The translations under genes were made by a program, and so were the position numbers. From assembly GCF_004135365.1 (NCBI RefSeq), contig NZ_CP035492.1:2168501-2232500 (forward strand): 64,000 nt of DNA. Direction: 5' to 3'. The notes under the pieces were generated by a model. The model was not told the origin of the DNA, searched no databases, and saw only the letters and a program-made list of their open reading frames with translations. Below, piece after piece: positions 20,079 to 23,857 of the stretch; positions within the stretch are counted from its first letter, which is position 1, and each line of letters begins with the position of its first letter. Origin of the DNA: Paenibacillus protaetiae (lineage in GTDB: Bacteria > Bacillota > Bacilli > Paenibacillales > Paenibacillaceae).

Positions 20079-20525
20079 ATGATACGAATCCGGAATGCCA
20101 AGCTGGATGACCGAAGCTTGTTCAAGCTGATCCGGACAGAGCTTATTCCTCTGTCCTATACGGTAACCGACAGCGCCGAAGCCATTCGCGAGCTGCCGAA
20201 AAGGTTCCAAAGCGGCGTCACTTACGTGGCCTCTGCCGGAACTATGTCCCCTGCGTTTGGCTTTGTCCATTTTGAAGTGATGGACCACATTTTGTTTGTC
20301 GATATGCTGGCCGTAGCTCCGGAATACCGCAGCTATGGCTGGGGCCGGCGCCTGATGGCGGCCTGTGAAGCGCATGGGCTGTCACATGGCTGCAAGACAG
20401 CGCGGCTGTTCGTCGATGACATTAACAACAAAGCGCAGCAATTTTATGCCCGTCTTGGCTATGCACGGAGCCACTACTACCCCGATCTGCATTGTTATGA
20501 AATGATCAAGCCGCTTCCTCGTTAA
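20079..20525 (+). CDS. GNAT-family N-acetyltransferase
   Basis: A 148-residue acetyltransferase. The acetyl-CoA-binding motif A region is LAVAPEYRSYGWGRRLMAAC, and the C-terminal motif B is NNKAQQFYARLGY. The substrate is unknown. The ATG at 20079 was chosen because AAAAGGAG lies upstream; further upstream in-frame starts have no such site. It is divergent from the ilv promoter, and its stop overlaps by three bases the stop codon of the converging glycine-rich gene. Confidence 0.85.
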   Translation: MIRIRNAKLDDRSLFKLIRTELIPLSYTVTDSAEAIRELPKRFQSGVTYVASAGTMSPAFGFVHFEVMDHILFVDMLAVAPEYRSYGWGRRLMAACEAHGLSHGCKTARLFVDDINNKAQQFYARLGYARSHYYPDLHCYEMIKPLPR

Positions 20526-20971
20526 TAGAAGCCGCCGTTTGGATATCCTTTGCCAAAGCCGTTTCCATAGCCGTTGCTGTAGCCTTTCGGGCTGTAGCCG
20601 TAACCGCCGCCATAACCTTTGGGTCCGTAGCCGCCGCCTGGGCCATACCCACCTCCATAGCCTCCGCCATACCCGCTCGGGCCGTACCCGCCACCGCCGC
20701 AGCCTCCTCCGCAGCCGCCGCCAAATCCACCTCCGAAACCTCCAAAGAAAAATGGCAGCGTGCCGATGGCAAGCAAATCAAATAAGACAAGCGGCAGCAA
20801 AAACGCCCGTGTCTGCACCGTTTTGCCGTCTCTCGGAGGAAGCGGTGAAATATACAAATGGTCGCCCCGTATTTCTACAAGCTTGCCCGTTACAACCGAC
20901 CGGTCTTTGCGGACTGCATATATTTCTTTACCAACCAGCTTTATTGCCTGCTCTCTAGAAACCTTGCTCAT
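20522..20971 (-). CDS. Glycine-rich membrane-associated protein
   Basis: A 149-residue protein in three parts. Residues 1-52 are a small beta-rich segment (VGKEIYAVRKDRSVVTGKLV) that could be Sm-like. A hydrophobic stretch (about 57-77) follows, then a tail of some 70 residues made of Gly, Tyr and a few Cys, Pro and Ser in GGGYGP/GYGGGYG repeats. Proteins of this build are seen in spore-formers and may be spore-coat or envelope components, but I cannot name a family. AAGGAGG precedes the ATG. It is divergent from pspA and shares the intergenic region with the SigmaW-type promoter. Confidence 0.75.
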   Translation of the reverse strand: MSKVSREQAIKLVGKEIYAVRKDRSVVTGKLVEIRGDHLYISPLPPRDGKTVQTRAFLLPLVLFDLLAIGTLPFFFGGFGGGFGGGCGGGCGGGGYGPSGYGGGYGGGYGPGGGYGPKGYGGGYGYSPKGYSNGYGNGFGKGYPNGGFY

Positions 20972-21111: not shown

Positions 21112-21137
21112 TGAAACGGGATGCGCCTTTTGTCGTA
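21112..21137 (+). promoter_or_regulatory. ECF (SigmaW-type) promoter of the pspA operon
   Basis: TGAAAC (21112-21117), exactly 16 bases, then CGTA (21134-21137). This matches the Bacillus SigmaW/ECF envelope-stress consensus perfectly. It lies 47 bases before the pspA start. Confidence 0.85.
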
Positions 21138-21184
21138 TATCATCTCATCGGTGCCAAAATTAAAAACCTCGGGAGGATAACCAT

Positions 21185-21856
21185 ATGTCCATATTCAAAC
21201 GTTTACGCGACCTCACTTTATCCAACGTGTATGCCCTGATCGAAAAAGCGGAAGACCCCATCAAGCTGACGGACCAGTATATCCGCGACATGCAAGAAGA
21301 TTTGGAGGATGCGGAGAAAGCAGTAGCAGCTCAAATCGCGCTTGAGAAAAAATTCAAACAGCTGTATGAGGAACAAACACAGCTGGTCGAAAAACGCACG
21401 GAGCAGGCGCATATCGCAGCGCAGGCGCAAAACATCGACTTGGCGCGCAGAGCGCTGGAAGAAAAAAATGCTGCCGAAAGCAAAGCGGCCGAATATAAAG
21501 CAAGCTTTGACCAAAACAAAGCGCTTGCCGATAATCTTCGCGAAAAGCTGGATGAAATGCGCAAGCAGCTGACCGAAATGAAAAACAAACGCGAAACGAT
21601 TGCCGCCCGCTACAATGCAGCGAAAGCGCAGGAGCAAATTAACAAGTCGATGGCCGGCTTCAGCACCGACAGCGCGGCATCCGGCTTGAAGCGCATGGAA
21701 GAAAAAATGCTGCAAATGGAAGCTCGCGCCGAGGCCAGCAACGAGCTGAATGCTTCCAAGGGCAAATCGCTGGATGAAGAATTTGCGAACTTGAACAAAA
21801 ACAAAGCCGTTGAAGATGAGCTTGCGGCTCTTTTGAAGCAATACGAGCAAAAATAA
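21185..21856 (+). CDS. pspA: Phage-shock protein A / LiaH family
   Basis: A 223-residue, almost wholly helical coiled-coil protein of the PspA/IM30/LiaH (ESCRT-III-like) family, which binds stressed membranes from the cytoplasm. The N-terminal amphipathic segment MSIFKRLRDLTLSNV is typical, as is DPIKLTDQYIRDMQ. GGGAGG precedes the ATG. It leads a rightward group of four genes. The SigmaW-type promoter upstream matches the control of pspA in Bacillus subtilis. A GC-rich hairpin (TCCGCCGG/CCGGCGGA) in the gap after the gene may reduce downstream expression. Confidence 0.93.
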   Translation: MSIFKRLRDLTLSNVYALIEKAEDPIKLTDQYIRDMQEDLEDAEKAVAAQIALEKKFKQLYEEQTQLVEKRTEQAHIAAQAQNIDLARRALEEKNAAESKAAEYKASFDQNKALADNLREKLDEMRKQLTEMKNKRETIAARYNAAKAQEQINKSMAGFSTDSAASGLKRMEEKMLQMEARAEASNELNASKGKSLDEEFANLNKNKAVEDELAALLKQYEQK

Positions 21857-21980
21857 CGGCTTACGCTGCGCTGTATACAGCGTGATGGTCCGCCGGAGCG
21901 CAGATCGGCCAGATCGTGCACCGGCGGATTTGCTTTGAGAAGCAGTAACGGCTCCATTATAAACATGCAGGAGGGTTCCT

Positions 21981-22382
21981 ATGGATTGGATCGAAATTGC
22001 ACGCATTCCGGTATGGGCCGTGTTCGGATCAGTGCTTCTGCTCGTACTGATGCTGCTGGATTCATTAACTACCAAATACAAGGATTTACAGGAAATACGC
22101 GACGGCAATACGGCGGTCACGGTACGGTTTGTCATGAAGCTTGCGGCGCAAGCGTATATTTTAGGACAATCCATTCATAAGTCGGGAGATATCGGGGAAG
22201 CGCTTATTATTTCCGTCGTGTCATTTGTTATCCTGATGCTGATGGAATGGCTGTTCCGTTTCGGGCTGTCTGCAGCCAGCCGGATCAAGCTGGAGGATGG
22301 CATCCATGAAGGCAAAATCAACTACGCTTTGTTCGCCGGCTCCATCCATCTGGCGGGTGCGCTGATCATCGGCGCGGTATAA
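21981..22382 (+). CDS. Small membrane protein, DUF350-like
   Basis: A 133-residue protein with four hydrophobic segments (about 11-27, 47-62, 71-92, 112-132). The internal two-fold pattern of GN-A-V..., Ala/Gly-rich helix pairs fits the DUF350 family (YjfL-like), small membrane proteins often encoded beside PspA homologues. GGAGGGTTCCT precedes the ATG. The assignment to DUF350 is by pattern and context, so moderate. Confidence 0.7.
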   Translation: MDWIEIARIPVWAVFGSVLLLVLMLLDSLTTKYKDLQEIRDGNTAVTVRFVMKLAAQAYILGQSIHKSGDIGEALIISVVSFVILMLMEWLFRFGLSAASRIKLEDGIHEGKINYALFAGSIHLAGALIIGAV

Positions 22383-22417
22383 CCCGGAGCAGAAGCTGAA
22401 ATAAGGAGATTACGCTT

Positions 22418-22921
22418 ATGAGCTTATTTAAACGTGTAAAAAACTTGATCGCCAAACCCGAACCGATCAAAGAGGAAAAAAGCATTTTGTCATTAACGGC
22501 AGGCGACGTATGCGAAGTATCGCTTGTGACGTACCAGGTAACCGGCAGAACGCAAAACCGGAGCCGCAATGCCGTGCTGCTTACGCTGCAGGACGGCACG
22601 GACATTAAATATTTGGCGGTGGAGGAACGCGAGCGCACCGTCTACGAGCTATACGAACCCATCGACGGCCGGCTCGACTCGGTGGAGGAAGTGCCAACCA
22701 TCCTGGAACTGGATGACAGAAGTTACCACTTGGAAGAACAGTATTCCGGTTTTATTGTATGTACAGGCAAAACCCCGTTTAAGCAGGGCGGCGAGCAGTA
22801 TGTCTGGTCTTATCAGTCCGATGACATGAAGCTGGTCCGCATCGAATGGCAGGACGGCCGGTTTATGCTGTATGCGGGCGAGAAGGTGCTGCCGGCCGAC
22901 GTCCGCGTGCTGCGCGGCTGA
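22418..22921 (+). CDS. DUF4178 protein
   Basis: A 167-residue cytoplasmic, beta-rich protein matching DUF4178 (LTAGDVCEVSLVTYQVTGRT; YLAVEERERTVYELYEPID; YHLEEQYSG). DUF4178 genes recur next to pspA, DUF350 and polyamine-related genes, but the function is unknown. AAGGAGATTACGCTT precedes the ATG. The last 7 codons and the stop lie inside the first copy of a roughly 40-bp tandem duplication (22898-22977). Confidence 0.8.
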   Translation: MSLFKRVKNLIAKPEPIKEEKSILSLTAGDVCEVSLVTYQVTGRTQNRSRNAVLLTLQDGTDIKYLAVEERERTVYELYEPIDGRLDSVEEVPTILELDDRSYHLEEQYSGFIVCTGKTPFKQGGEQYVWSYQSDDMKLVRIEWQDGRFMLYAGEKVLPADVRVLRG

Positions 22922-22977
22922 TGCCATTGCGCTGCTGACGTCCGCATGCTCTGCGCGGCTGATGCCAATGCGCTGCC
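22898..22977 (+). repeat. Tandem duplication at the 3' end of the DUF4178 gene
   Basis: Copy 1 (22898-22936) and copy 2 (22937-22977) share the order GACGTCCGC, TGCGCGGCTGATGCCA and ATGCGCTGC or TTGCGCTGC. They differ by two substitutions and a 2-base insertion. Both include the TGA stop. A partial third start (GCTGCCGGGCCGG) follows. Confidence 0.8.
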
Positions 22978-23047
22978 GGGCCGGTACACGGCGTCTACCG
23001 CTGTCATAGCAGCTTTTTAACGAACTCCGCACCAAGGAGGGATCGAT

Positions 23048-23827
23048 TTGAACAATCGCTGGCTACATGCCATTAAAATTGTTATTATACTCAGCTTTAT
23101 CGTACCGATGCTGGCGGCATGCGGAATCGGCGATTCCATCAAGGAAAACTATCCGCTTGTATCCGCAAGCGGCTCCGGCAGCCAGACCTCTTATGTGTAC
23201 CGTGCAGCCGGAGAGACCGTGCCGCAGGTCGCTGCCAAGCTTGCCGATCAGAAGCATCCCGAGCAGCAGTCGGAACAAAGCGGCGACCGGATGTTTCTCG
23301 TCTACCCGGACGAAATCATTAACCTGCAAAAATCGCCCGATAACCCGGCAGACACGCTAATTGAGGTTGATTCCAAGTCATACGTTCAGCATAATTATAA
23401 TCCGTCTTTCCTGGAAGGTTATTTGCTGGCCAGCGTAATCGGCAGCTTGTTCGACCACGGCAAGTACAGCGGCGGCGATTACCGCGGCTACTCCAGCAAA
23501 GATACTTATCAGCCGCAGACGAAATACCGGACGCCTACCGAACAGGATAAAAAAGCCGCACCGCCGGTTACAGTAAACAAAACAGGCTCCATCTTCAAGC
23601 GGTCCAAAACGGCGGATTCCACAGCCGTCGGAAGCGGCTCTTCCGACTCCGGATCTACATCATCAAAAGTCGGCAAAATATTGCGTAACGACAAAAGCAG
23701 CTCCAGCCTCGGATCGGGATCAAGCAGCAAGTCCAGCAGCAAATCAAGCGGCGGCGTGCTCAAAAAGAAAAGCTATTCGGCGCCCAAAGTAAAAATGGGC
23801 CGAAGCAAAATAACAAGACGACGGTGA
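23048..23827 (+). CDS. DUF4247 lipoprotein
   Basis: A 259-residue secreted lipoprotein. The signal peptide ends in a lipobox PMLAAC with Cys25 as the lipidation site. The DUF4247 core spans about 35-140 (GETVPQVAAKLADQKHPEQQ; RMFLVYPDEIINLQ; VQHNYNPSFLEGYLLASVIG). The rest is a Ser/Lys-rich low-complexity tail. The start is TTG at 23048, with AAGGAGG seven bases upstream. It is last in the pspA group and would place one component outside the membrane. The terminator hairpin overlaps the stop codon. Confidence 0.85.
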   Translation: MNNRWLHAIKIVIILSFIVPMLAACGIGDSIKENYPLVSASGSGSQTSYVYRAAGETVPQVAAKLADQKHPEQQSEQSGDRMFLVYPDEIINLQKSPDNPADTLIEVDSKSYVQHNYNPSFLEGYLLASVIGSLFDHGKYSGGDYRGYSSKDTYQPQTKYRTPTEQDKKAAPPVTVNKTGSIFKRSKTADSTAVGSGSSDSGSTSSKVGKILRNDKSSSSLGSGSSSKSSSKSSGGVLKKKSYSAPKVKMGRSKITRRR

Positions 23828-23857
23828 TGTCAGCATCCACCGTCGTCTTTCTTTTTC
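23817..23857 (+). terminator. Terminator of the pspA operon
   Basis: AGACGACGGTG-ATG...CAT-CCACCGTCGTCT stem followed by TTCTTTTT. The stop codon of the DUF4247 gene lies in the left arm. Confidence 0.85.

Follow-up and report, generated by a model that had tools for sequence, protein, structure and literature searches.

PspA-family proteins coat the inner leaflet of the membrane, and DUF350, DUF4178, DUF4247 and membrane-fused spermidine synthases recur beside them in many bacteria. In the literature searched, no established function was found for any of these four neighbours. The closest described systems are a second group of operons in Ravi et al. 2024, which, in the parts of that paper available to us, combine PspA with SpeE-7TM, DUF350, a lipoprotein and DUF4178 (PMC11237479). 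The same parts assign DUF4247 to sister operons without the PspA dyad and make the general suggestion of "aminopropylation of other substrates" (PMC11237479). The locus considered here is a four-gene operon, pspA-DUF350-DUF4178-DUF4247, of Paenibacillus protaetiae (NZ_CP035492.1); it lies in a stretch of 64,000 nucleotides (positions 2,168,501 to 2,232,500), which is called the window below. Like the second-group operons it holds PspA, DUF350, DUF4178 and a lipoprotein together, but it has no membrane spermidine synthase, and its lipoprotein is DUF4247 (PMC11237479, as far as the accessible text goes). The first-pass annotation of the window took this four-gene form to be distinct from described systems. 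That was partly wrong, since the combination of PspA, DUF350, DUF4178 and a lipoprotein, there joined by a membrane spermidine synthase, was already described in that paper. Most pieces of the operon are already in print, and the part that could be new is a C-terminal tag.

Other described systems share some of the genes. The E. coli yjfIJKLMC run likewise contains a PspA homolog (YjfJ) and DUF350 (YjfL), whereas DUF2170, DUF2491, DUF1190 and the ligase YjfC take the place of DUF4178 and DUF4247; yjfIJKL was raised in heat-evolved E. coli strains, according to the accessible part of the report (PMC12492005). The ydjFGHL (pspA) operon of Bacillus subtilis and LiaIH are, like the window operon, envelope-stress systems of Firmicutes built on PspA, but their partners are zinc-ribbon, TPM, band-7 or Lia proteins in the available text (PMC11237479). 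The window PspA falls short of the LiaH equivalog, scoring 123.6 bits against a cut-off of 380. The window operon has no room for a CesT/Tir-like gene, and none was seen among the six open reading frames (ORFs) scanned, although no dedicated CesT/Tir profile was run. A five-gene operon of other Bacillota, DUF4178-PspA-DUF4247-DUF350-SPE, contains the window's four families, but it has a different gene order, a Gly-Lys tail and, in addition, a membrane-fused, aminopropyltransferase-like enzyme (SPE). The literature searched held no report of the PspA-DUF4247 combination, of C-terminal signatures or of an SPE substrate, although the figures and supplementary tables of Ravi et al. 2024 may list more. 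Nor did it report a C-terminal GK tag or aminopropylation of these lipoproteins, most subscription journals lying outside its coverage. It mentioned DUF4178 in one paper and DUF4247 in three.

The reading that we lean towards, tentatively, sees in the window operon a PspA module for membrane protection, driven by SigW, with a cationic-tailed outer lipoprotein, whose tail end would be enzyme-made in relatives and is arginine-coded in the window. The observation behind it is that the DUF4247 C-terminus depends on the partner enzyme. The surveys covered 119 genomes of the window's order, 398 genomes of the phylum, 348 genomes of a second order and, as a named set, the 80 best-matching of 217 loci retrieved by a DUF4178 alignment; the nearest named relatives are Paenibacillus, and Brevibacillus is more distant. 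DUF4247 ended in Gly-Lys in all 89 loci with SPE, 81 from the second-order and related set and eight others (L157-L163 and L167, of which L163 and L167 were examined after the pattern had been noticed). The end had the form GGGxxxGK in 86 and GGGPGxGK in 58 of the 89. L322 was excluded; it has a GK end at a locus without SPE, but SPE is present elsewhere in its genome. Without SPE, the ends were basic in 126 of 127 DUF4247 ORFs and carried a conserved terminal block. They comprised 78 of 79 ORFs in 78 named four-gene loci (the exception is a 178-aa fragment, L222), all 32 four-gene loci of the window's order (overlapping the named loci), all 44 places without PspA, and all four SPE-less loci of the second order, which come from three genomes lacking any full-length SPE. 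One genome, G043, holds both kinds (L149 and L054), each with the matching end. Among background ORFs in the same loci, which are longest-ORF picks and not all real genes, 66 of 459 ended in K, two in GK and ten in two basic residues; the last figure was 15 of 758 in Paenibacillus loci.

The enzyme itself is found in many relatives beyond the window's order. DUF4178 was found in 22 of the 398 phylum genomes, 15 of them outside the order, and SPE (PF01564) was present in 11 of those 15 loci (L164, L165, L166 and L168 are without it), with the five-gene order in seven of the 11 by our own profiles. In the second order, DUF4247 occurred in 80 genomes, and SPE lay on the same strand in 81 of 86 loci from second-order and related searches. 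Within the window's order a full-length SPE was found in two genomes (G043 and G100). The window's own genome is not one of them; its sole PF01564 match is a 285-aa open frame elsewhere, a soluble synthase, and no membrane-fused SPE was found. Of 62 full-length copies, 61 retain GGGDG and all 62 retain D-x-P-D-P, motifs that we take to be donor-site and catalytic features. A soluble spermidine synthase was also considered as a partner, and rejected: the SPETM matches in L209 and L232 are ORFs of 224 and 238 aa, not the membrane form.

Outside the phylum, nine of 12 plasmid records were opened (all except H4, H10 and H12). In all six bacterial genera with a full-length SPE, a membrane-anchored, mostly tiny protein of the cluster ends in Lys: GGGPESGK in Ensifer (adjoining SPE), GPSSGK in Alteromonas (between DUF4178 and DUF350), FRHGK in Gemmatirosa, GPSHK or GPTHK in Novosphingobium and SNRVK in Tritonibacter (each adjoining DUF350), and YGSHK in Burkholderia (about 3 kb off, on the opposite strand). 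The Lys-ended genes of Gemmatirosa, Tritonibacter, Ensifer and Burkholderia are unannotated ORFs chosen by eye, and a K at the end is in itself common, as the background count shows. The Novosphingobium plasmid (L353) has in one run an SPFH protein, two DUF4178 genes, the 48-aa membrane protein ending in GPSHK, DUF350, SPE, an oxidoreductase and speD, the product of which makes the aminopropyl donor. On a Halorussus plasmid (L358), two adjacent lipoproteins that both end in WKVSPRI stand beside a membrane spermidine synthase and DUF2617; this is another C-terminus in common at such an enzyme.

A Pfam scan found no GSP_synth gene in the window operon. Elsewhere in the window's genome (L135, G000:C1:1885059-1895436), a protein ending in GGFGG, probably secreted, is accompanied by a GSP_synth ligase (5.1e-55), a further protein and DUF350. 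A GG-ended protein was found beside the ligase at 12 of the 13 loci seen in the order, some ligases being named by reading; L151, whose ligase is divergent, showed no GG-ended neighbour. In E. coli, YgiB and YjfM likewise end in GG, beside YgiC and YjfC, which are annotated as peptide--spermidine ligases. Pederick et al. 2023 reportedly describe this activity for YgiC and YjfC; sister operons may thus already offer an experimental precedent for a terminal residue matched to a polyamine enzyme. The GG-tailed protein was rejected as a DUF4247 relative, as the hmmsearch matches came from its Ser-rich tail and the hhalign probability was 1.3.

One SPE locus also bears on topology. The L167 gene immediately preceding DUF350 and SPE encodes a single 370-aa protein with DUF4178 at residues 11-137 (1.5e-10), a membrane helix from about 161-164, a DUF4247-like region (hmmsearch 6e-12 across 173-370) and the end GGGLSSGK. 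It is probably a natural DUF4178-transmembrane-DUF4247 fusion. If this is right, DUF4178 and DUF4247 would belong to one machine, in which the membrane separates them. The earlier suggestion that the set covers cytoplasm, membrane and surface is supported, and is strengthened by this probable fusion.

The regulation was examined by pattern matching. In 70 of 81 four-gene loci (window included), GAAAC-N15-17-CGT lies within the 300 bp that precede pspA, whereas Markov shuffles give an expectation of 0.98 loci (largest of 50 shuffles: 5); the full TGAAAC-N16-CGTA is there in 43 of 81. Within the operons of relatives, such sites were found upstream of DUF350 in 2 of 78, of DUF4178 in 0 of 80 and of DUF4247 in 0 of 79, and a scan of the window gave no second site inside its operon. 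TGAAAC-N15-17-CGTA matches once in the whole window; 0.21 matches are expected in the shuffled window, and at least one occurred in 19 of 100 shuffles. The perfect promoter that the first-pass annotation placed ahead of pspA is confirmed, and one conserved SigW-type promoter for the set is supported. A SigW-type site also heads the two-gene DUF4178-DUF4247 arrangement in 40 of 42 cases, PspA-(DUF350)-DUF4178 in 11 of 11, mutS2-PspA-DUF350 in 7 of 7 and the five-gene operons of the second order in 60 of 69. It was found in only one of 14 DUF4178 loci outside the window's order, in three of 12 ligase operons (there no nearer than 275-294 bp upstream), and in none of the second order's four PspA-DUF4178-DUF4247 loci (three of them offer just 156 bp of upstream sequence). 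The sigW gene of the window's genome is borderline, its TIGR02948 score of 243.1 bits falling exactly at the cut-off of 243.1. Several extracytoplasmic function sigma factors read sites similar to those of SigW, so the sequence supports "SigW-type" at most; the window operon appears to be under such a promoter, and the dependence of its expression on SigW is a prediction from sequence.

Under the reading that we favour, envelope stress would induce the operon through SigW, and the products would form one trans-membrane assembly. PspA would polymerise on the inner leaflet of the damaged membrane, while the cytoplasmic, beta-rich DUF4178, whose N-terminus is amphipathic and basic, and the membrane protein DUF350 would couple it to the outer DUF4247. 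The cationic end of the DUF4247 tail would be the outer working part, which may attach to anionic lipid or a wall polymer and so mark the site or seal it. In relatives with the GGGxxxGK end, the terminal lysine would receive aminopropyl groups from SPE; the window's lineage has no SPE, and there the positive charge would be gene-coded as arginine. A more specific proposal is possible but rather doubtful: that a C-terminal lysine tag (mostly GGGxxxGK) on membrane-anchored surface proteins is made a polycation by a dedicated membrane aminopropyltransferase run by a PspA stress module, the window being an enzyme-less, arginine-coded branch. If true, terminal-lysine aminopropylation by SPE would be a new protein modification and would explain the polyamine genes beside PspA; the Lys tag would be a surface counterpart of hypusine, and the window operon a natural enzyme-free control. 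The polyamine-enzyme relatives and the C-terminal signatures, both missed by the first-pass annotation, are the most informative clue to mechanism.

A number of points weigh against this reading. Decarboxylated AdoMet, the aminopropyl donor, is a cytosolic product, while the DUF4247 tail is outside; hydropathy gives seven helices in three of eight SPE proteins and six in five, so the catalytic domain may face either side. The DUF4247 core tree has a minimum of two label changes, with weak forks, so the independent switches are few. Rhodovulum has an SPE fragment and no Lys-ended neighbour was found there; Halorussus, the sole archaeal record opened, carries a distant synthase, and its lipoproteins end in SPRI. 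The DUF4247 part of the L167 fusion is weak without its tail (hmmsearch 4.9e-5 with three sequences searched, hhalign probability 20), and Pfam does not report DUF4247 in it. The promoter pattern is absent in 11 of 81 loci. The sole SigW-type site in the sigW locus sits after the sigW match, not before it, so no autoregulatory site was seen, and SigW autoregulation was dropped as support. The mutS2-linked PspA is not an ortholog of the four-gene PspA. In the window, the arginine codons also build an arm of the terminator; terminator coding is a possible cause of the RRR end there, but among relatives at least six of the nine bases pair in only 29 of 78 and at most two in 26 of 78. The physical assembly of the four proteins is itself presumed, and the cationic ends might bind wall or lipid and be unconnected with polyamines.

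The last point belongs to the alternative that survives best, although we consider it unlikely: a plain PspA membrane-protection operon, in which DUF350, DUF4178 and DUF4247 sense the membrane and recruit PspA, and the charged tail only anchors to anionic wall polymers, independently of polyamines. The SigW-type promoter and PspA itself agree with it, as does the basic tail, in which 163 conserved GSIxRR-like motifs were counted in 79 proteins against 3.6 after shuffling. However, it explains neither the switch to Gly-Lys with SPE (89 of 89) nor why proteins next to the ligase end in Gly-Gly (12 of 13 loci). Improbable, in our estimate, is that SPE makes free polyamine and that the GK tail serves it for docking or regulation, not as a substrate, and was replaced by basic sequence after the enzyme was lost. 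This would give the same co-variation of C-terminus and SPE as the favoured reading, and the retained SPE motifs are consistent with it; but the SPE-less ends, basic in 126 of 127 and conserved in their terminal block, are not decayed, and a terminal lysine is odd for mere docking. A Lia-like sensor, in which the outer DUF4247 responds to cell-wall antibiotics and the signal passes by way of DUF350 and DUF4178 to control how active PspA is, would suit the topology of the set and the probable fusion, but it is very improbable, since the genes scanned include no kinase, regulator or known signalling domain and the window PspA is far below the LiaH cut-off.

All four genes of the window operon are confirmed, and so are its SigW-type promoter and its terminator (Table 1). 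The Pfam scores of PspA_IM30 (173.9 bits, cut-off 33.9, spanning residues 2-218, i.e., the full length), DUF350 (84.8), DUF4178 (94.9) and DUF4247 (95.1) are all well above the curated cut-offs. The second gene had been called "DUF350-like"; the family was right and the hedge can be dropped, since the score makes it DUF350 proper. The gaps between the genes are, from 5' to 3', 124, 35 and 126 nt. The terminator said to overlap the last stop was recovered, although a simple terminator scan missed it: a 71-nt segment folds at -26.4 kcal/mol (z -5.2), and none of 200 shuffles was equally good.

Table 1. Features of the operon and its surroundings (positions count from the first letter of the window).
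Feature	Position	Strand	Basis
SigW-type promoter TGAAAC-N16-CGTA	21112..21137	+	Pattern match; equivalent site in 70/81 loci
pspA, PspA/IM30 (ESCRT-III-like), 223 aa	21185..21856	+	Pfam PF04012 4.8e-51; solved PspA/Vipp1 relatives, best 5.8e-34
DUF350 (YjfL family) membrane protein, 133 aa	21981..22382	+	PF03994 7.1e-24
DUF4178 all-beta protein, amphipathic basic N-terminal segment, 167 aa	22418..22921	+	PF13785 6e-27; model
DUF4247 lipoprotein, 259 aa, TTG start, lipobox LAAC, disordered basic tail	23048..23827	+	PF14042 6.6e-27; model
Arg-Arg-Arg codons ending DUF4247 tail	23816..23824	+	Sequence; basic ends in relatives
Intrinsic terminator hairpin over last codons and stop, T-rich sequence 3'	23815..23849	+	Folding against shuffles
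Divergent glycine/tyrosine-rich gene	20522..20971	-	
Tandem near-copies	22895..22976		
Weak terminator-like hairpin with TTTTT	23000..23013		

The DUF4247 lipobox was identified by reading, and residues 178-237 have pLDDT below 50 in the structure model, which points to a disordered tail. A profile search gave DUF4247 no relative of solved structure. The DUF4178 model has a pLDDT of 88.7, with the first 20 residues low; this N-terminus is basic and amphipathic (moment 0.64 against 0.35 shuffled). Foldseek returned no match for DUF4178 at E 0.001 or better, and no fold is claimed from the top VIA-align row (EF-P, Z 6.3 across 60 residues), which is in the range that the tool calls common. A likeness to the DnaE intein, with rows only at E 0.25 and weaker, was read as chance.

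The predicted co-occurrence of the four families holds across relatives. All four stand together in 77 of the 80 named loci; as the loci were fetched by DUF4178, this figure measures the partners given DUF4178. The exceptions are L186 and L197, which show only PspA and DUF4178, and L199, without a DUF350 match. In the window's order, DUF4247 is present in 74 of 119 genomes at 76 places, with DUF4178 upstream on the same strand at 74 places and the complete PspA-DUF350-DUF4178-DUF4247 order at 32. Another 30 places have DUF4178 without DUF4247; PspA is present at 18 of these and DUF350 as well at 15, the other three PspA loci showing no DUF350. At one such place (L119), DUF350 is on the opposite strand.

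It was considered whether mutS2-PspA-DUF350 (family f6) together with DUF4178-DUF4247 represents the four-gene operon split in two, but the PspA tree contradicts this. Four-gene and three-gene PspA form one well-supported clade apart from the mutS2-linked PspA, so re-partnering is the most that can be proposed. In a family of the order other than that of the window's genome (L152, L153 and L169-L173), mutS2, PspA and DUF350 stand together, each time behind a SigW-type site. In the window's genome, a DUF350 gene follows a mutS2-like gene, named by reading (L134), and two more PspA genes flank a small PspC-like protein, also named by reading, on one strand (L136, G000:C1:2323981-2334814).

The divergent glycine-rich gene, which had been proposed as a possible member of the operon, was rejected as a conserved partner: a profile of its first 80 residues (one sequence) matched in none of the 80 relatives. 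The N-terminal domain is unmatched, and the protein gave no Pfam or NCBIfam match. The spacer between DUF4178 and DUF4247 is long in the window, 126 nt against about 12 in many relatives. Together with the end of DUF4178 it contains tandem near-copies, one pair of 26 nt at 22910/22951 (96% alike) and one of 22 nt at 22895/22934 (82%), and the weak terminator-like hairpin lies downstream of them, before DUF4247.

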